A stretch of DNA of 43,396 nucleotides from Methanobacteriota archaeon. GTDB lineage: Archaea > Thermoplasmatota > Poseidoniia > Poseidoniales > Poseidoniaceae. Below are positions 3,469-42,256 of the stretch, in pieces. Location of the stretch: assembly GCA_011526375.1 (NCBI GenBank), contig WTIT01000087.1, positions 13,059 to 56,454 on the forward strand. The letters are read 5' to 3'. Under the pieces are notes generated by a model, which was not told where the DNA came from, did not search any database, and saw nothing but the letters and a program-made list of their open reading frames with translations. How positions within the stretch are numbered: position 1 is the first letter of the stretch; each line of letters opens with the position of its first letter. The position numbers were made by a program, and so were the translations under genes.

Positions 3469-6400
3469 ATGAATGAGGAGTCTCTTAGGTTAGTCCGACC
3501 GGGCCTGCCTCAATCAGGAGACCCTAGAAAACCAGCATTTTTCTTGGTAATACTGATGCTGTTATCAATTTCTAACCCAGTTGCTGCAGACACTACTGTG
3601 TCCCGTGATGATTTTGATGTAATTGATGCCTTGATGGAAACTCTTGCTGATAGAATACAGGGCGGTGAGCCAGATGTTGCGCTAAATTCAGCTCAAGGGG
3701 CACTCTCTCAAGTTGATGCGAACGCAAGAGGTATATCTTCAACTGACCCACTTTCAGTATCAAACTCATTCTTGGATGGAATTTCGATGCGTGATTCATC
3801 GTCATTTGAACCAGACCATCCAAGGCCATACGAATTCCTAATGGATGCTTCAACTCAGCCCGAGGGCTTCCCAAACAATCTCTTCCAGACACTATTCTCT
3901 GTCAGTAATCTCGACATCAACAATATACTAGCCATCGGAATCAATACCTATGCAGTGTATGTTAATTTCACTTCAAGAGATAACGGGCCATCCTATGAAG
4001 CCTGGGAACAGGGTACATTCACCGGAGAACTTTTTGTTGACGGACAAATTGTTTTGTTCGCTAATTATATCGATATTGATGGTGATGGAGAAGATGATTT
4101 ATCAGTTGCATTGACTATTGAGGGGATATTAACCCAAGGTGATGGTTGGGGAGTTGAAACAAGTGGTGGATTAATTCCAATTGTCGAAAAGTTGTGGATT
4201 AATCCAACCTTCCAATGGGAGGTAACTGCATTAGATCAAACAGACCCATTGTGGGATTCATTAGAGCATTTAGAAATCAGTTTAATGAAAGGATTAGCCT
4301 TTGATATTACGTTGGATGACTCTGAATCCTATGCGATTGTAATAGATACAAGATTCACCCAACCTCCACATCAATTTACCCTTGGCGTTGGGATAGAGAG
4401 AATTGAATTTAATGTCGCACCTCAAGACTTGATATCATTCCTCGCTGCTTTGTTGATTGGTGGAATAGACTCAAGCCAGTTATCACTTTCCTCTATAACC
4501 GCACCTTATTCAGTTCAAGTTAGAAATCCAAACGCCCCAGGAACGGACATCCAAACAGACTGTGAGGATGAGTCGTATTATGATCCAGTGGCGGACAACG
4601 AAGCACCAAGTCACGAACATAAATGCGGATTTGGAGTCGGTGTAGGATACATACGCTTTGATGGCGATGGAGGCGGTCAGTCGGCACCGGTGCTGGAGAT
4701 GAGTTATCTTGATGCTGGCTTCCACCCTGAGATCGGCGATACTAGATTACCAGAAGAAGTAGACATCACAATCAGAAATGATAACATTGGTGAAAATTCC
4801 TTCGATTCGGTAGAAATTTATTCTGACAAAGGCTCTGATGTTTACTTGCACTATTATGAAAATAGGGCGAATGTACAAGACGGAGAATCAGAATTTGGCA
4901 ATGTAACTGATGCCAGAGCTTGGATTCACGGCTTACCTTCTGGAAGCATGCCTCAGCAGGAAATAAATTCGATTTTCACCATGATTGGTGAGGCACCCAA
5001 TTCGGCAAACCTACCTGGAGAAGTTCCAAACCGTCTCTCTCTGATTATTGCTATCAAAAATTTCTCGGGAGATTCATCTGCTAATGTTAACGACCCAACA
5101 CTACCGGTAAACCCAACAAATCCACCAAATACTCTCATTGCGATTATTGGGACAGAATCAATCGATCGTTTGGAGTACCAATCGACCTTCGAGAGAGGTG
5201 GAGTTAGCAATGACCGCTCATCATTAGCTGTAGTTGTTGAAGATGTACCGAAAGCGATTCTTGTCGAGGGGAGTTTCCTGGTATCACCAACTGGCGTTGA
5301 CAGAGTGAATTATGATAATCCAAATCTCAATACTATTGCCCAGATATTTGACAATGCCCTTCTTACCGTGGTTCAAGTTATTTTGGACATTGGTGACATT
5401 GTGAATTCTTTACCAGATTCAATAATTAGCACAACGGGTTCTGAAGGTGGAACTTTAGAAATCCATTGTTACAATCAAATTACTGCAAATCTGGGCGGAA
5501 ATCTCAGAGAGTCAAGTGAAATCGGTACGGTTGCATTAGCCTTCTCCAGCAGCGATAATCCGGTAATTCCTGATCAAGACCACATACTACTTTCAGAAGA
5601 TACCAACATCGCGCTGGTTATTGGTCGTGATGGTCAACCGATCAAACCTCTGGTACCGGTTGCCATCAGTTTACGAGTTTCAGGATTATCCGATGTTGTG
5701 CAGACATTTGATCCAAATACTGACATTAGAGACATCGAAATAACAGGCTCAACAGGTGAATCAATACTGGTTGGCCATGTCAAGCACGACGATGGAGATT
5801 TAGGCAATGCAATTACGCAATCCGCAATGATTTCAAATAGGCCTGACACGCTAAAAATAATTCAAACTTCAAGTGCTCTTACATACCAAGCAAGTGAACC
5901 TATACAGTCAATAACATACGGAGGAAAAAGCCCTGCTCAGCAGAATTCAATTCAACTCAATGGTTTGCCTTCTGATTTTTCCCTTACCTTGGGCGACACG
6001 TTAGGATATACTGGTAATCAACCAATTGAATCGATAATTATTCAATTAACCAACTCTAGTGAACCAAAAACAATGGATGGCGACCATTTCAGATTCTGGG
6101 TTGACCAAGATACCGCTGAAGCAAGTATGAGTCTCAAAATTTCAGACATTATTAGTTTGACAAGACTATCACCACAAGTTCCAGACGCAGTCGGACCGGA
6201 AGGAAACTCCGAAATTCAGATGGTAAGAAGCCAATCGTCACCGTTCTACATCATGTTTGAGGATGAATCAGAATACGAAGACGAATTCCTTGGTATGAAC
6301 GGTAAGGCGATTCTTCAACCATTGCCCTCCAATATTTCTCTAGCATTCCCAAGCACTGTTGATTCCTCTGGCCTAGAACTGCCAAGTTTCGATGAAGGCG

Positions 6401-8130
6401 AAGGAATAGAATCTCTCTCATTCTTCCTTGGTGATTTAGTTGATTTTGGCAGTTCTGTCAACGATTTAATTTATGATTTTACTAAGGATTTGGTCGGTAC
6501 TGATGGCGAAGAAGAAGACTTCGCTCTTGGCTTAGAATTACTTACTGGTGAAGCATTCAATCTAACTGTTGATATGCGAAAAGGCTCGATCGCTATTGAT
6601 GAACCTCAGTGGGCTCACGGAGTTGCAATGAACGTTAAAGAAGCAACAAAACTAACCTACAACTTATCACGATTACCATTACTTACTCAATCAGATATAA
6701 CGAATTCAAATGAAATCTTAGCAGATTACAAAATTGACAAAACAGAGCGAGCATTAGCGATTGATATTTTGACGAGATCAAACATTACTGAGGCAATTAA
6801 ACTAGTAGACGCGTTGGAAGATGGAGTGATTTTTGATGCTGAGTTAGATTCTCTAAACGAGACCTTACTTGAGGAGGAGGGCATTACTCTAAACTTTAGA
6901 CGCTCATGGCACAATCGATTATGGTTACCACAATTACCTGCGGGTCAGATTTCTCTCGAGTATGATTTCAGAATGGTTGGCGATATACCATATTACGAAT
7001 TCGACCTATTCCTCGGACAATGGAAGCCACTGCGTGAACAAATCAGCATCGTGGTTAATGGCCTTCAGGGAAGAGATATGGATTTGGTAATCAATGGGCT
7101 CGATGTAACTAAACCAAATGATGTTAGTGCTAACGCATTATTTTTCACTCAAGATGATCTTATTGTACCTAGATTCAATGTGGATATGAGGTATGATTTT
7201 GGTTCTAATCTCGACTCAGTTTATGCAACTTTCATCGATCGAATCGAACAAACTAGGGTAGAGGCTTTGTTTATCGATGTTGCACAGTCGATGGATTTTT
7301 CAGCCACAATTGGTGACATTTTCAACATATCAATGGATGTACCCGAGGAGTTCAGAACTCAAGGCAAGTTTTCGGCAGAGAAATTAATGATTCAACAAAT
7401 GCGTTTTGTCGACGGATTTTGGTGGCCTGCTACAACATTTATGCGAAATTTGCCTAGTGTGATGACACTATCAGCTGTTCCAGCCAATGATTTTGACATT
7501 AGAGCCGATACCTCATTCCAAGGCATGATGACTCTTGATTATGCTTCAAACGGCGACAATTTAGACCTCTACCTCGAGGCTAGCGGCCGAGCAGTTGACT
7601 TCAGAGGAGATGTATTGATGATAGCACAAGGCCTTCCATCAACCTTCAAACTGGAACCAACAAATGATTGGGGTATGCGTGTGGCATCATCAGGAGATGG
7701 CGTCAAGAGTCTCTACATGAAACAAGAGAATATTCCTGTTCAGCCGGGTGTAACAGTCAATCGATTGGAGTTGATTGGTGAGGATTTGAAGTCTGCCGTG
7801 ATTAACGTCAAGCGTGGACCATATGAATATCCAGTAATAATTCTAGATGATATTACTTCTGGTAGGATAGTCGCAAGTGCTCAAGTTACCAGTCAGCCAG
7901 GCTACTATGTGGACTTCTTTGGCGATCGGAAGTTTGACGGCAGAGCAGTAATGTTGGACACACAATTTACCGGAATAGTACCAGTTTCTTCTTCACTTGG
8001 AGTAAATGGCATGGTCTCTGATTTGAGTTTGATTGGTACATTAACTGGAGGTAATGTTGAAACTACCCACATATTGTTGGTTGAACCGGTTACTTCCATG
8101 GTTGCAAGTACACTTGCTATGCTGGGGTGA
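3469..8130 (+). CDS. Giant (about 1550 aa) secreted beta-rich protein of unknown function
   Basis: Long uninterrupted ORF with N-terminal hydrophobic signal (PAFFLVILMLLSISNPVAA); no family recognised; recurrent LPS-x(3)-L segments. Confidence 0.8.
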   Translation: MNEESLRLVRPGLPQSGDPRKPAFFLVILMLLSISNPVAADTTVSRDDFDVIDALMETLADRIQGGEPDVALNSAQGALSQVDANARGISSTDPLSVSNSFLDGISMRDSSSFEPDHPRPYEFLMDASTQPEGFPNNLFQTLFSVSNLDINNILAIGINTYAVYVNFTSRDNGPSYEAWEQGTFTGELFVDGQIVLFANYIDIDGDGEDDLSVALTIEGILTQGDGWGVETSGGLIPIVEKLWINPTFQWEVTALDQTDPLWDSLEHLEISLMKGLAFDITLDDSESYAIVIDTRFTQPPHQFTLGVGIERIEFNVAPQDLISFLAALLIGGIDSSQLSLSSITAPYSVQVRNPNAPGTDIQTDCEDESYYDPVADNEAPSHEHKCGFGVGVGYIRFDGDGGGQSAPVLEMSYLDAGFHPEIGDTRLPEEVDITIRNDNIGENSFDSVEIYSDKGSDVYLHYYENRANVQDGESEFGNVTDARAWIHGLPSGSMPQQEINSIFTMIGEAPNSANLPGEVPNRLSLIIAIKNFSGDSSANVNDPTLPVNPTNPPNTLIAIIGTESIDRLEYQSTFERGGVSNDRSSLAVVVEDVPKAILVEGSFLVSPTGVDRVNYDNPNLNTIAQIFDNALLTVVQVILDIGDIVNSLPDSIISTTGSEGGTLEIHCYNQITANLGGNLRESSEIGTVALAFSSSDNPVIPDQDHILLSEDTNIALVIGRDGQPIKPLVPVAISLRVSGLSDVVQTFDPNTDIRDIEITGSTGESILVGHVKHDDGDLGNAITQSAMISNRPDTLKIIQTSSALTYQASEPIQSITYGGKSPAQQNSIQLNGLPSDFSLTLGDTLGYTGNQPIESIIIQLTNSSEPKTMDGDHFRFWVDQDTAEASMSLKISDIISLTRLSPQVPDAVGPEGNSEIQMVRSQSSPFYIMFEDESEYEDEFLGMNGKAILQPLPSNISLAFPSTVDSSGLELPSFDEGEGIESLSFFLGDLVDFGSSVNDLIYDFTKDLVGTDGEEEDFALGLELLTGEAFNLTVDMRKGSIAIDEPQWAHGVAMNVKEATKLTYNLSRLPLLTQSDITNSNEILADYKIDKTERALAIDILTRSNITEAIKLVDALEDGVIFDAELDSLNETLLEEEGITLNFRRSWHNRLWLPQLPAGQISLEYDFRMVGDIPYYEFDLFLGQWKPLREQISIVVNGLQGRDMDLVINGLDVTKPNDVSANALFFTQDDLIVPRFNVDMRYDFGSNLDSVYATFIDRIEQTRVEALFIDVAQSMDFSATIGDIFNISMDVPEEFRTQGKFSAEKLMIQQMRFVDGFWWPATTFMRNLPSVMTLSAVPANDFDIRADTSFQGMMTLDYASNGDNLDLYLEASGRAVDFRGDVLMIAQGLPSTFKLEPTNDWGMRVASSGDGVKSLYMKQENIPVQPGVTVNRLELIGEDLKSAVINVKRGPYEYPVIILDDITSGRIVASAQVTSQPGYYVDFFGDRKFDGRAVMLDTQFTGIVPVSSSLGVNGMVSDLSLIGTLTGGNVETTHILLVEPVTSMVASTLAMLG

Positions 8131-8134
8131 TTAA

Positions 8135-8734
8135 ATGGTTGAAGAGGAAAATGGGGTAATCATCAATGATGAGGGAGAGCTCCTAATTCATGAGGATTCA
8201 ATCATTGAGACAACAGAGATGTCAGCGGAAGATTTGGCAATCTTACAAGCCTCAAAGGATGCAGCAAAATTCGTCCAAGATTTACAAAAAGAAATCACTC
8301 CAAACAGAGTTGCTACTGCAGGACTAATTTTACTCCTACTTGTTGGTGCCATATTCAGCACATGGTACTGGGTTATTCCACGAGACTCAGTGATGGTCGA
8401 AACTCTATATCTCCAACGTAGCGGTCACTTAGTGATGTCAGAAATTCACAATACAGGCAGCAGAGAAATAACCGATGTCGATTTCCAAGTTACCTTCCAA
8501 TCATTGGACGGAGAGGTTTTACAAACAATGGGAATCGAAGTAGATTCCATTTCAGCACACTCATCAGTTGCTGGTGATGACTTAGAGATGTTGATAGTTG
8601 GTTACACTGTTTGGGACAATTATGTCATCGCAATAGATCTAAAATATACCGATCATCGGGGCGACCAACAATTCTTACTTGTTACTCATGAAGTGGGAGA
8701 TTGGGCATGGGAAGAATTCAAGGATAGAAATTGA
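8135..8734 (+). CDS. Single-TM protein with extracytoplasmic domain, unknown function
   Basis: 199 aa ORF, TM VATAGLILLLLVGAIFSTWYWVI followed by a beta-rich domain; starts 5 nt after the upstream stop. Confidence 0.75.
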   Translation: MVEEENGVIINDEGELLIHEDSIIETTEMSAEDLAILQASKDAAKFVQDLQKEITPNRVATAGLILLLLVGAIFSTWYWVIPRDSVMVETLYLQRSGHLVMSEIHNTGSREITDVDFQVTFQSLDGEVLQTMGIEVDSISAHSSVAGDDLEMLIVGYTVWDNYVIAIDLKYTDHRGDQQFLLVTHEVGDWAWEEFKDRN

Positions 8735-36515: not shown

Positions 36516-37712
36516 TCAAACAAGTGATTCACTACAGGCATATTTCCTGGAACAATTTTCGCACTTACCAATGCGGTCATGATTGCGCTTTGCTCCACCT
36601 TCAACCATTAATCGTTGAATTTCTTGAACCTGCTCGAAAAGTTCGTTTTTTGCCGCCTCATCCCAAATGATTTGGTGGATATCGTCATTGCCATAACGTA
36701 GTATCCCATAGGGAGTACTTCGGTTGGTATTTTTTTCAACGAGGTGGATATAAGCCAATAATTGACGACGATGTGATGTATGCGGGCGCTTCGGGACTCT
36801 GCCAGTCTTTTGCTCGATTGGAATAAACTCACCATCGATTACAACAATTTGGTCTGGCCTACCTCTAATCCCTGTTTGTTTATCGATCAGTAACCCAGAG
36901 GATTCTTCATCATCCGAATATGCTACCTCAGATCCTGATTTTAGTCCAACATCTTTACGCGCTAATTCTGATTCATTCTCGGAAATAAGTGCTCTCTGTA
37001 ATTGCCAAGATGCTGCTAGAGTCCATACCATGGCTAAAACAATCAAAATAAATCCTGCTTGCTGGCGATTCTCAGCACCATTCAATGCTATTGAATGGAT
37101 GCCTAGTAGCATTGCAGCGAATAGTAGACCAATTTCGACCTTTCCTGCTTCAAACCAACCACCTTCAAATCCTTCAATCTCCCATTCAGGCTCGAGAATT
37201 TTGGTTTCTTGGATGATTTTGTTCTTTTCTACTTTGATAGTTTCTGCGAAGCCTAACCATTTTCTCCATGGGATGTAGATGGCGGTTAAGCCAGCAACTA
37301 ACACAGTAAGGCTCCACATGGCAAGATATTTCGCCATGTCTTTTGGATATAACATTACATCGTCAATCATCATAATCGCTACTGAATCAATCGCAATAGC
37401 AATAATCACGGTAAACCACCAAGTCCAAATTATCATCTGTCGCCTAAATTGGCTTTGCTTGGTCCTGAATTCAGAAACTCTGTTGTGGATTTCTGCGTGT
37501 TTCACTTTACCCAATTCTACGGCTTCTCCTTGGCCAGTGTTACCTTGTTTTGCTAATTCCCATGACAATGGGCAATAAGCGTGTCTTTCGATATCGCTAG
37601 CGCTTACTCTGAGTAGAGTGCCATTGTTGTCCCGCCAAAAACCGTCCTTACTTTTCTTGGCGCTGGAGAGGTCAAAATCCGAATGATTCTGCCTTCCCTC
37701 CTGCCCGGCCAT
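36516..37712 (-). CDS. Cas4-like PD-(D/E)XK nuclease with internal transmembrane insertion
   Basis: N-terminal VSASDIERHAYCPLSWELA...LGKVKHAEIH; RecB-type core GRPDQIVVIDGEFIPIEQKTG...RQLLAYIHLVE; C-terminal CENCSRKYAC (Fe-S type); hydrophobic segments between residues about 92 and 240. Confidence 0.85.
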   Translation of the reverse strand: MAGQEGRQNHSDFDLSSAKKSKDGFWRDNNGTLLRVSASDIERHAYCPLSWELAKQGNTGQGEAVELGKVKHAEIHNRVSEFRTKQSQFRRQMIIWTWWFTVIIAIAIDSVAIMMIDDVMLYPKDMAKYLAMWSLTVLVAGLTAIYIPWRKWLGFAETIKVEKNKIIQETKILEPEWEIEGFEGGWFEAGKVEIGLLFAAMLLGIHSIALNGAENRQQAGFILIVLAMVWTLAASWQLQRALISENESELARKDVGLKSGSEVAYSDDEESSGLLIDKQTGIRGRPDQIVVIDGEFIPIEQKTGRVPKRPHTSHRRQLLAYIHLVEKNTNRSTPYGILRYGNDDIHQIIWDEAAKNELFEQVQEIQRLMVEGGAKRNHDRIGKCENCSRKYACSESLV

Positions 37713-39324: not shown

Positions 39325-40497
39325 GTGACCATAGAGGTGGCTTATTTGATAATGGACTTGGCTACGATTTTAGTTATCGTCAATGGTCTATTGGTCACTT
39401 TAATGGTCTCTGAGGGCTTGTTTAACCAATATGTAAGAAAGCATGAGTCGCCGTGGAAAGAGATGATTTACAACCTAAATTCTGGCCATTTGCTAATGTG
39501 GATCTGCCGTGGTTTGGAAATTATTGGTTATTATTACATCCTGTCTTATTCGCCTTATCGATTGTTTGAAAATTTACCAGTTTGGCAAACTTTCTTGATT
39601 GCCTTCATTGCTTGGGATTTTGGTTTCTACTGGTTCCATAGAGCACATCACAAATTTAGTGCACTGTGGGTTTTACATAATGTCCATCACCAAGGAGAAA
39701 ATTTCAATCTCTCCTTGGGTATTAGAAATGCTTGGTTTTCATCACTCACAGCCCTACCGTTCTATGCTATTCTAGCAGTTGCAGGGCTGCCTGTTGAGAT
39801 GTTCATAACAGTTGCAAGTATTCATATTGTCATTCAATTCTATAACCACAATAGCATTGTCAAAAAGTCAGGTATACTTGAGTTGTTTATGATTACTCCA
39901 TCACACCACAGGGTCCATCACGGTGTTCAAGATGTCTATGTTGACCGAAATTTTGGCGGCACCTTTGTGATTTGGGACAAATTATTCGGAACCTTTCAGG
40001 TAGAACTCGATGAAGTACCCGTTGAGTATGGGTCACATGAAAAAATTGAGACTTCCAACGTGTTTTGGGGCAACCTCATTCCAATTTTGCGATGGCTTGG
40101 CCTCAAAACTGAAAATCCAAAACTAGGCAATTACCGTATACCAAATTTCCATATCGTAATCAATGGACTGCTTGTGTTCGGTATTTATGTTCAATATCTA
40201 ATTTACGAGATAAGTGGTAATCTAACAGATATGGGGATAATTTTCGCAATTGGGTTTTCAGGAACATTAGGACTCGGATTTATCAGCGACCAAAAGCTCT
40301 GGGGTTATCGGTTAAATCTAATCTCATCAATAATTCTAGCAAGCATTTATTTTATTGCATTTAGAATTAATGACATATACCTTGAAGCTAATATCGTACT
40401 GATATTATTCTCAAATTTGCTGATGTATTTCTCTTTTGAGGATGTTAGTCTAAATTTGTCCACCGAGGATACAATAGACAGTAAATCTGTTGCTTAA
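39325..40497 (+). CDS. Fatty acid hydroxylase / sterol desaturase superfamily membrane protein
   Basis: His clusters FHRAHH, LHNVHHQ, SHHRVHHG; multiple TMs; GTG start. Confidence 0.9.
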   Translation: MTIEVAYLIMDLATILVIVNGLLVTLMVSEGLFNQYVRKHESPWKEMIYNLNSGHLLMWICRGLEIIGYYYILSYSPYRLFENLPVWQTFLIAFIAWDFGFYWFHRAHHKFSALWVLHNVHHQGENFNLSLGIRNAWFSSLTALPFYAILAVAGLPVEMFITVASIHIVIQFYNHNSIVKKSGILELFMITPSHHRVHHGVQDVYVDRNFGGTFVIWDKLFGTFQVELDEVPVEYGSHEKIETSNVFWGNLIPILRWLGLKTENPKLGNYRIPNFHIVINGLLVFGIYVQYLIYEISGNLTDMGIIFAIGFSGTLGLGFISDQKLWGYRLNLISSIILASIYFIAFRINDIYLEANIVLILFSNLLMYFSFEDVSLNLSTEDTIDSKSVA

Positions 40498-40517
40498 TTA
40501 TCATTAGAGGGTTATGC

Positions 40518-41558
40518 GTGACTCAGGGATTATTTCACAGTAAAATCCTCTCCTTCGCCAGTTACATACCTGAAAACTTTGTTCCGATTGAGGAATTTGC
40601 CGCAGTAGGTGACTTACCAGGTAAGTTAGACCTCCATAGATTAACAGGTATCGATGGCCATCGTCGAAGTGATTTAGCAGAAGGTAGTCTAGAACTAGCC
40701 ACCAAAGCAGCCAAAAAATGTATCCATAGATCTAAGATTGAGCCAGATAAAATAGATTTAGTAATCAATTGCGCAGTTAGTAACCTTTCTAGCAGTTTAG
40801 GCCTGCATATTTCACCGAGTATGGCTACGATTATCGCTAAGGAACTGGGTATTAATGAAGCAATTTGTTTTGATATTTCCAATGCCTGTTCAGGTATGAT
40901 TACTTCGTTGATGATTGCTGATTCAATGATAAAATCCGGTGAAATAGAGACGGCGCTAATCGTCTCAGGGGAAAATATCACTTCACTTATTGATGAAGCT
41001 AAATCAAATAATCTGTGGCTAAAAAGTAAAGCAATAGCATCCATGACCGTCGGTGATGGCTCAGCAGCATATTTGATCGGTAGGTCAGAGGCCCCCAACC
41101 AAGTTATTTTCAGTGAGCCATTTACTTTTGCTCAATACAATAAATTGTGCATAGGAGAAGCATCAAAGAAACGTGCAGGCCCACTGATGAGAACCAAGGC
41201 ATCTCAACTACAGCAGGGAGTGTTGGACAACCTTAGTGAATTTCTCACACGGTCAATGCGCCGTATGGAACTTAATTGGAGTGAAATAAACCATGTTTAT
41301 TCTCATCCAACCTCACCTAAAGCAGTGGATAAAGGGGCGGAGATTGCGATAGCAGCAGTTGGTCCAATCATGCAATTACATAATGATAGTCAGGACATTG
41401 CAAATACCGCGTCTACGAGCCACTGTATGCTGCTTGAGAAATCTCTCAAGGCTGGGAAATTGAATTCAGGTGACTCTGCTCTACTCATTTCTTTTGGGTC
41501 TGGATTGGCAATGCTAGCGATGTACTTCCATATGCCGGAGGGAATTGAACAATGGTAG
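40518..41558 (+). CDS. 3-oxoacyl-ACP synthase III (KAS III / FabH-like) thiolase-fold enzyme
   Basis: FDISNACSGMITSLMIADSMIKSGEIETALIVSGE (catalytic Cys), VYSHPTSPKAVDKG (candidate His), NTASTSHCMLLEKSLKAG (candidate Asn), SFGSGLAMLAMYF. GTG start. Confidence 0.85.
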   Translation: MTQGLFHSKILSFASYIPENFVPIEEFAAVGDLPGKLDLHRLTGIDGHRRSDLAEGSLELATKAAKKCIHRSKIEPDKIDLVINCAVSNLSSSLGLHISPSMATIIAKELGINEAICFDISNACSGMITSLMIADSMIKSGEIETALIVSGENITSLIDEAKSNNLWLKSKAIASMTVGDGSAAYLIGRSEAPNQVIFSEPFTFAQYNKLCIGEASKKRAGPLMRTKASQLQQGVLDNLSEFLTRSMRRMELNWSEINHVYSHPTSPKAVDKGAEIAIAAVGPIMQLHNDSQDIANTASTSHCMLLEKSLKAGKLNSGDSALLISFGSGLAMLAMYFHMPEGIEQW

Positions 41559-42256
41559 TCATTGTGGGCTGGAAATCATCGCCGATAGGCCGCAGTAGTT
41601 TGCTAAAATCAATTTGTAATTTGTCAAGAAAGTTGATTGCTGAATCCTCAATAACACTAAATGATGTTAATTTGATTATCCATGCCGGAGTATATCGACG
41701 GAATTTCAGAACTGAACCAGCATTTGCTAGTCATGTTCAGGGCGAATTAGGATTGAAGTGTAAACCAATCTCTCAGCAATCAAACCACTGTTTTTCTTTT
41801 GACGTAAGCGATGGTAGTTGTAGTCCATATGTTGCACTGAATTCTGCTAAACATATGTTGAAAATTAAATCTGGAGGATACGCTCTAATTACAGTAGGAG
41901 ACGAGCGACCAAATGCTCAATCAAAGTGGTCTTATCAACCGATATCTTGTGTGATGTTGGTTGCATTGGAGGGCGATGGAGCAAAATTGAAATCAACAAT
42001 ATTTGACTCAAAATTATTTGACTCATCAGCAGTAGTGTCAACGATTTTTGATGAAACTAAATCTGCGAACATTATTGCTGAACACACTCCATTTGAAAGA
42101 AAAGGTACTGTTGACGGTGAGAAATTTATCGGCAATGCCAACTGGTTGTCAGGGCAGCATATGCACGAGTTTCTAACCCAATATTCTCAAGCAATGACTA
42201 AAATCCATCAAATTAACGACCATTCAGGAAAAACAGTGACTGCAACCTGGATGTGA
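41552..42256 (+). CDS. Half-size thiolase-fold (KAS III N-domain-like) protein
   Basis: LNDVNLIIHAGVYRR...FDVSDGSCSPYVALNSAKHMLKIKSGGYALITVGDE resembles the N-terminal half of KAS III; overlaps the upstream gene (ATGGTAG). Confidence 0.65.
   Translation: MVVIVGWKSSPIGRSSLLKSICNLSRKLIAESSITLNDVNLIIHAGVYRRNFRTEPAFASHVQGELGLKCKPISQQSNHCFSFDVSDGSCSPYVALNSAKHMLKIKSGGYALITVGDERPNAQSKWSYQPISCVMLVALEGDGAKLKSTIFDSKLFDSSAVVSTIFDETKSANIIAEHTPFERKGTVDGEKFIGNANWLSGQHMHEFLTQYSQAMTKIHQINDHSGKTVTATWM

Follow-up and report, generated by a model that had tools for sequence, protein, structure and literature searches.

A Cas4-type nuclease interrupted by predicted transmembrane helices in Marine Group II archaea and their relatives

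The window analysed here (the whole stretch of 43,396 nucleotides, from a member of the Poseidoniales, also known as Marine Group II or MGII) carries on its minus strand a gene with an ATG start whose product belongs to the Cas4/RecB-like family of PD-(D/E)XK nucleases and whose nuclease domain is interrupted by a block of four predicted transmembrane (TM) helices (Table 1). Family membership is well supported by profile matches, conserved residues and fold, while nuclease activity and Fe-S binding are inferred. Our preferred explanation, held with moderate confidence, is that the protein is a CRISPR-independent, vertically inherited, membrane-anchored solo-Cas4 which trims DNA ends at the membrane. 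Proteins with this architecture are called TM-Cas4 below; the taxonomic family of the source organism is labelled f1, its sister family f2, and further families are numbered likewise.

Table 1. Position of the TM-split Cas4-type gene and of its parts in the window (residues in ORF numbering).
Feature	Positions	Strand	Basis
TM-split Cas4-type nuclease gene, 398 aa	36516..37712	-	ORF, Pfam, orthologues across the order
N-terminal Cas4 segment, residues 35-91, SASD..YCPLSW with Cys1 (C47) and His motif (H72)	37440..37610	-	
TM helix 1 (predicted), residues 95-116, includes D109	37365..37430	-	AlphaFold model, hydropathy, conservation
TM helix 2 (predicted), residues 124-147	37272..37343	-	AlphaFold model, hydropathy
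Inter-hairpin linker, residues 148-190, predicted cytoplasmic, GGWFEAG motif	37143..37271	-	conservation
TM helix 3 (predicted), residues 191-212, includes H206	37077..37142	-	AlphaFold model, hydropathy, conservation
TM helix 4 (predicted), residues 216-240, runs on into the helix entering the core	36993..37067	-	AlphaFold model, hydropathy
Catalytic core, residues 257-393: GRPDQ, E-x-K-T-G, QLLAY, GKCxxCSRxxxC	36534..36944	-	Pfam, NCBIfam/PADLOC, PDB profile search, alignment
Cys2-Cys4 of the putative Fe-S site, C384-x2-C387-x5-C393	36534..36563	-	alignment

The window protein was matched above the gathering cut-off by two Pfam models, Cas_Cas4 (PF01930; E = 1.4e-9, 38.7 bits, cut-off 22.7) and PDDEXK_1 (PF12705; E = 7.8e-9, 36.3 bits, cut-off 22). 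Both matches were confined to residues 256-393, the C-terminal part, because the insertion breaks the family profile. Cas4 models of NCBIfam and PADLOC also matched the core. With the TIGR00372 equivalog model the window protein scored 61.9 bits, under the 65-bit cut-off, and of six further members scanned four passed (67.6-82.8 bits) and two failed (53.2 and 62.5 bits). The catalytic and cysteine residues were assigned as C47 (within SASD-x6-YCPLSW), H72, D287 (within GRPDQ), E300 and K302 (E300-x-K302-T-G), Q317/Y321, C384, C387 and C393. C47 and H72 were conserved in all 37 MGII sequences covering them and the remaining catalytic and cysteine residues in 38/38. Phylum-wide, the catalytic residues (H72, D287, E300, K302, Q317, Y321) were near-invariant, and all four putative Fe-S cysteines, the N-terminal one and the three near the C-terminus, were present in 32/32 sequences of the alignment.

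The AlphaFold model of the window protein was of moderate confidence (pLDDT 73.9, pTM 0.55), with helices at residues 63-115, 123-146, 191-212 and 216-255; the first and the fourth of these link nuclease domain and membrane block without interruption. Cas4 ranked first when this model was searched with Foldseek. A model of the shorter protein L093 (f3, 278 aa, one hairpin; helices 33-86 and 90-130) reached pLDDT 84.9 and pTM 0.76, and its best matches in the PDB were the type I-C Cas4 (8d3l_J, TM-score 0.67 on the target), Cas4/Cas1, Dna2, AdnAB, MGME1 and ACE1. Among the top Foldseek hits, which were Cas4, 8d3l_I had an E-value of 3.1e-6. The family profile (A3) searched against PDB sequences returned Cas4 chains only (8d3l, 4r5q, 4ic1, 7mi4). 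In the profile alignment to 8d3l the N-terminal cysteine segment formed a separate stretch ahead of the core, residues 35-91 of the window protein aligning with the N-terminus of Cas4 in that structure. The distance from the His motif to the catalytic Asp is about 30 residues in an ordinary Cas4, the CAS-Cas4 of Haloferax volcanii pHV4, and about 200 in the window protein, which places the insertion after the His-motif helix and ahead of the first strands of the catalytic sheet.

Hydropathy analysis of the window protein gave four TM-like segments (residues 98-116, 129-147, 192-210 and 220-238), and at the threshold used (1.4) only 0.65% of composition shuffles reached four or more. The retention of the TM block in 38 aligned homologues, with identity down to 41%, is stronger evidence than the shuffles, as chance would not produce it. 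Invariant within the block across these 38 sequences were W96, W98, P148-W149-R150, G190, E193, H206 and W230. Residue 109 was D or E and residue 206 was H in 38/38 MGII sequences, the two occupying equivalent places in TM1 and TM3. This polar pair inside the membrane block (D109, about 37386-37388; H206, about 37095-37097) is unexplained, and the hairpins of the homologue L112 seem to have Asn there.

In family f16 the protein was split into two adjacent ORFs in 40/45 genomes, representing 23/23 genera, and the same split was found in f27 and in one genome of f35. The upstream half (about 90 aa) carries Cys1 and the His motif and has a TM helix at its C-terminus, and the downstream half (about 160-200 aa) has an N-terminal TM helix followed by the catalytic core with Cys2-4; in f6 a C-terminal half with a leading TM helix was found. 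The break thus falls in the hairpin loop, leaving one TM helix on each half, and both halves should lie on the same side of the membrane because a single Fe-S site needs C47 together with C384, C387 and C393. One homologue (L058; G093, 5986-7443; genus g9) carries about 90 extra, secreted-looking residues (DSLGNGWNG...) in the TM1-TM2 loop, without a match to any Pfam family; a gene of equal length occurs in a second genome of that genus (G150:C17:36767-38212), the comparison being of length and not of sequence. The split sites and the loop insert are independent features which agree in placing, by inference, the hairpin loops outside and the nuclease inside the cell, the positive-inside rule being only weakly informative for these proteins.

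At most of the f16 junctions (L163-L192) no ATG, GTG or TTG stood where the downstream half should start. NNTATAG was preceded by a Shine-Dalgarno-like GRGGTGRT, and the codon that overlaps the stop of the upstream half was ATA in 26/30 loci and ATG (L168), TTG (L183) or CTG (L186) in single loci, as counted by eye. Overlapping gene pairs in archaea have been linked to translational coupling (PMC6728339, PMC10666635), and the sequences suggest, by inference, that the downstream half of f16 uses a conserved AUA start within an ATAG stop-start overlap and is translationally coupled to the upstream half. A programmed frameshift was considered and set aside, since the pattern of mostly ATA with single ATG, TTG and CTG fits a start codon better. 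One genome of f35 (G240) was observed to contain both a single-chain form with four TM helices and a split two-gene form (L148, L110).

In the class-level search the gene was found in 68/70 genomes of f1, both exceptions being about 80% complete, and, in the one-hairpin form, in 20 genomes of f3, which belongs to a different order of the same class. In f2 it was restricted to some genera, six genera being without it (counts for f1, f2 and f3 were tallied by hand from the search tables). The lipoprotein gene that flanks it elsewhere directly adjoined rpsB in 6/7 of the f2 genomes without the gene that were examined, which suggests clean loss; absence from f2 genera with smaller genomes indicates that the gene is dispensable. 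Its occurrence in 68/70 genomes of f1 and its conserved place beside rpsB indicate vertical inheritance. One genome (G022) has a second, broken copy near a contig end (L059, G022:C6:85774-86948), the intact copy lying on C7; the broken copy is possibly a relic or an assembly mix. The phylum-wide search matched 130/197 genomes; the survey covers this one phylum, and other archaeal phyla were outside its scope.

The insertion site was identical in every lineage compared, whatever the number of TM helices. By hydropathy, and hence approximately, two helices were counted in f3, f12, f15 and f20, four in f1, f2, f7, f8, f17, f18, f22, f24, f29, f30, f35 and f38, and about eight in f11, f26 and f33. 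In a tree of the nuclease parts the MGII sequences grouped together and the hairpin numbers were scattered, on a weakly supported backbone. A profile of the core-proximal hairpin, trained on members with two and four TM helices, also matched the upstream hairpins of L112 (37.6 bits), L126 (40.6 bits) and L110 (28.7 bits), against maxima of 15.9, 17.0 and 7.7 bits for the respective block-shuffled sequences, and we therefore infer hairpin duplication in these lineages. L126 and L110 had contributed their core-proximal hairpin to the profile; L112 had contributed nothing. In the window protein the profile matched the core-proximal hairpin alone (31.6 bits), of which TM helix 4 is part and which is homologous to the hairpin of other families, and the first hairpin was not detected by it. 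The best alignments of TM1 with TM3 and of TM2 with TM4 fell at offsets close to each other (97 and 93), which is only a weak signal for a duplication inside MGII, and the hairpin profile did not detect one. We conclude that the core-proximal hairpin is common to the single-chain family and that many lineages, including that of the window, have further hairpins ahead of it.

The first-pass annotation had described the ORF at 36516-37712 as a Cas4-like nuclease split by TM helices; this held, and the strand is added here. Its hydrophobic region (about residues 92-240, 36993-37439) was confirmed and refined to residues 95-240 (36993-37430), and the Cas4/RecB-type N-terminus, EQK-TG core and C-terminal cysteine motif it had named are all conserved in the alignment. 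It had proposed that its reading would fail if the hydrophobic region were not predicted as TM, if the core did not match PD-(D/E)XK, or if close relatives lacked the insertion. The region passed by hydropathy and AlphaFold helices, the core passed by profile and fold, and close as well as distant relatives keep the insertion; the models of the window protein and of L093 both match Cas4. With these three tests survived, the proposed membrane-tethered nuclease is well supported as an architecture, albeit by computation only, membrane insertion itself being inferred.

In MGII the gene lies between rpsB and a lipoprotein gene, oriented opposite to both, and its neighbours include a dihydrouridine synthase, a RIO kinase and a KH protein; in f3 the genes that come after it are THEP1, Trm1, one like RpoL, and TruD (several genes of both sets were named by eye), and in f30 glmS is near. 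No defence gene or defence island was seen among the neighbouring genes of the loci compared, the neighbourhood comparison recognised no helicase or Argonaute nearby, and no partner gene was found. Cas1 was absent from 112/112 genomes of the order, 9/14 control genomes being positive, and no CRISPR-type direct repeats or repeat array were found in the window. Nor was ComEC (PF03772) detected in any of these 112 genomes; a ComEC partner for DNA uptake is thereby made unlikely, but as the archaeal controls were also all negative this excludes that type of uptake machine alone. NurA (PF09376) went undetected in the same 112/112 genomes, though the archaeal controls were positive. Searches of phage records returned no relatives, and plasmid records contained only ordinary Cas4-type cores. 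The earlier statement that no cas1/cas2 or repeat array lies in the window held for repeats and is extended for cas1 to the whole order, and the neighbourhood survey it had proposed found housekeeping-type neighbours and no defence genes. Of the roles it had offered (incoming DNA, defence or repair) none is decided, CRISPR adaptation and a ComEC-type partner having become unlikely.

Two further observations concern the wider window. Relatives (E 5e-17 and 9e-7) of a giant secreted protein (3469-8130) and a membrane protein of 199 aa (8135-8734) are encoded directly upstream of TM-Cas4 in f3, about 28 kb separating them from it in the window; an old gene neighbourhood is possible. At 39325-42256 consecutive genes for a protein of the fatty-acid-hydroxylase family, a ketoacyl-synthase III-like protein and a companion that no Pfam model matches resemble a small lipid or polyketide cluster, which is not shared with the neighbouring loci compared.

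Among known systems the closest is solo-Cas4 (COG1468/PF01930 outside cas loci), which is common in archaea, of uncharacterised function and evolves vertically like ordinary genes (PMC5704561, Hudaiberdiev et al. 2017). TM-Cas4 shares with it the catalytic residues, Q-x3-Y, Cys1...Cx2Cx5C, the fold, the vertical inheritance and the absence of CRISPR neighbours. Solved Cas4 proteins such as 4ic1 and 4r5q are soluble chains of about 200 aa with an uninterrupted domain, whereas that of TM-Cas4 is broken up by TM helices, numbering from 2 to about 8. With a four-helix TM block inside its nuclease domain the window protein is therefore a variant of solo-Cas4 and not a plain member. The CAS-Cas4 proteins of CRISPR adaptation (8d3l, 7mi4) provide the best structural and profile matches but differ in that neither cas1 nor an array is found here. 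The RecB-like nucleases AddB/AdnAB, Dna2, MGME1 and EXO5 have the nuclease fold in common with TM-Cas4, which lacks a helicase domain; to our knowledge none of them is interrupted by TM helices. The split arrangement of four Fe-S cysteines is shared by AddB, Dna2 and EXO5. ACE1 (9iac, 9iab), an Argonaute-associated Cas4 family protein, is likewise a Cas4-family fold outside CRISPR, but has a link to Argonaute by name and is described without a TM block. Transmembrane forms are not mentioned in the text of the main Cas4 survey (PMC5704561), and no description of a membrane-bound or transmembrane Cas4 was found in the open-access literature searched (titles, abstracts and counts), so that priority is uncertain.

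In the mechanism we propose, the helices flanking the membrane block would join the N-terminal Cys/His segment and the core on the cytoplasmic side, the four cysteines would complete a single Fe-S site, and DNA would be cut with a metal ion at the D/E/K centre. The most likely substrate would be DNA ends that are free or single-stranded and lie at the membrane's inner face, and the protein would probably act as a constitutive housekeeping or surveillance enzyme. This explanation rests on the sequence and its conservation, the similarity in fold, the TM block predicted, the vertical inheritance and the lack of cas1; membrane insertion, Fe-S binding, nuclease activity and the nature of the DNA are inferred. 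Several points count against it: the evidence is computational, the model of the window protein is only moderately confident, an ordinary repair nuclease has no obvious need for a membrane, six f2 genera manage without the gene, no partner gene was found, and the large variation in length of the TM blocks is not explained by a simple anchor. As to the role, we rank first the handling of DNA entering across the membrane (by virus ejection, vesicles or transfer), although we would not call it probable; the processing of ends at the membrane, during repair or in the handling of the chromosome, follows just behind and also falls short of being probable, and some other role, ranked third, is possible. 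Near-universality in one family and the housekeeping neighbours favour a general function.

Several alternative explanations were weighed. The protein may be a surveillance nuclease for foreign DNA, innate and directed against viruses or uptake, that degrades DNA emerging on the cytoplasmic side. The membrane location with an inside-facing core and the lineage without cas1 speak for it, and for one Cas4 protein an Fe-S cluster and 5' to 3' exonuclease activity on DNA have been demonstrated (PMC3466216). Against it, the gene lies beside housekeeping genes outside defence islands, is near-universal in its family instead of patchy, and has no match in phage records; we hold this reading to be less likely than not. 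A repair or chromosome-maintenance nuclease that trims or resects the ends of membrane-attached DNA, perhaps in place of NurA, is possible. Vertical inheritance, the housekeeping neighbours, the failure to detect NurA in the order and the generally vertical evolution of solo-Cas4 genes are in its favour, but no helicase partner was recognised nearby, and the f2 genera without the gene are also without NurA, so that the absence of a complementary pattern argues against NurA replacement.

That the TM block is a signalling or transport module, the nuclease being regulated through the membrane or having a different substrate, is unlikely. It could draw on D/E109 and H206 at equivalent hairpin places, invariant in MGII, and on the varying number of TM helices (2, 4, about 8) with related hairpins repeated in several lineages. 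However, the four-TM proteins of other families show no evident Asp/His pair, a bare hairpin suffices in two-TM members, and no transporter or sensor family scored above cut-off, all Pfam hits in the block being sub-threshold. A CAS-Cas4 of CRISPR adaptation with its partners elsewhere in the genome is very unlikely: the NCBIfam and PADLOC matches are for it, and the order-wide lack of cas1, the window without an array and the sub-threshold TIGR00372 score are against it. An artefact (a frameshift, a chimera or the fusion of two genes by assembly) has nothing but the odd architecture in its favour and is practically ruled out, since the reading frame stays open and collinear and is conserved across dozens of independent genomes, including the single-contig G002.

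Returning to the membrane-anchored solo-Cas4, a bolder reading, which taken as a whole we regard as more doubtful than not, is that of a phylum-wide class of membrane-embedded Cas4 proteins serving as a general, CRISPR-independent checkpoint for DNA at the cytoplasmic membrane of archaea, with a catalytic domain assembled across a hairpin, with hairpin duplication and with translationally coupled half-nucleases in several families. TM-Cas4 represents a case of domain insertion that grows through added TM hairpins, and its split forms offer a natural split nuclease whose halves would have to meet in the membrane. Should the Cas4 retained by most of this phylum prove to be an integral membrane protein, its cellular workplace would be fixed, and the question of function would narrow to which DNA occurs at the inner face of the membrane.
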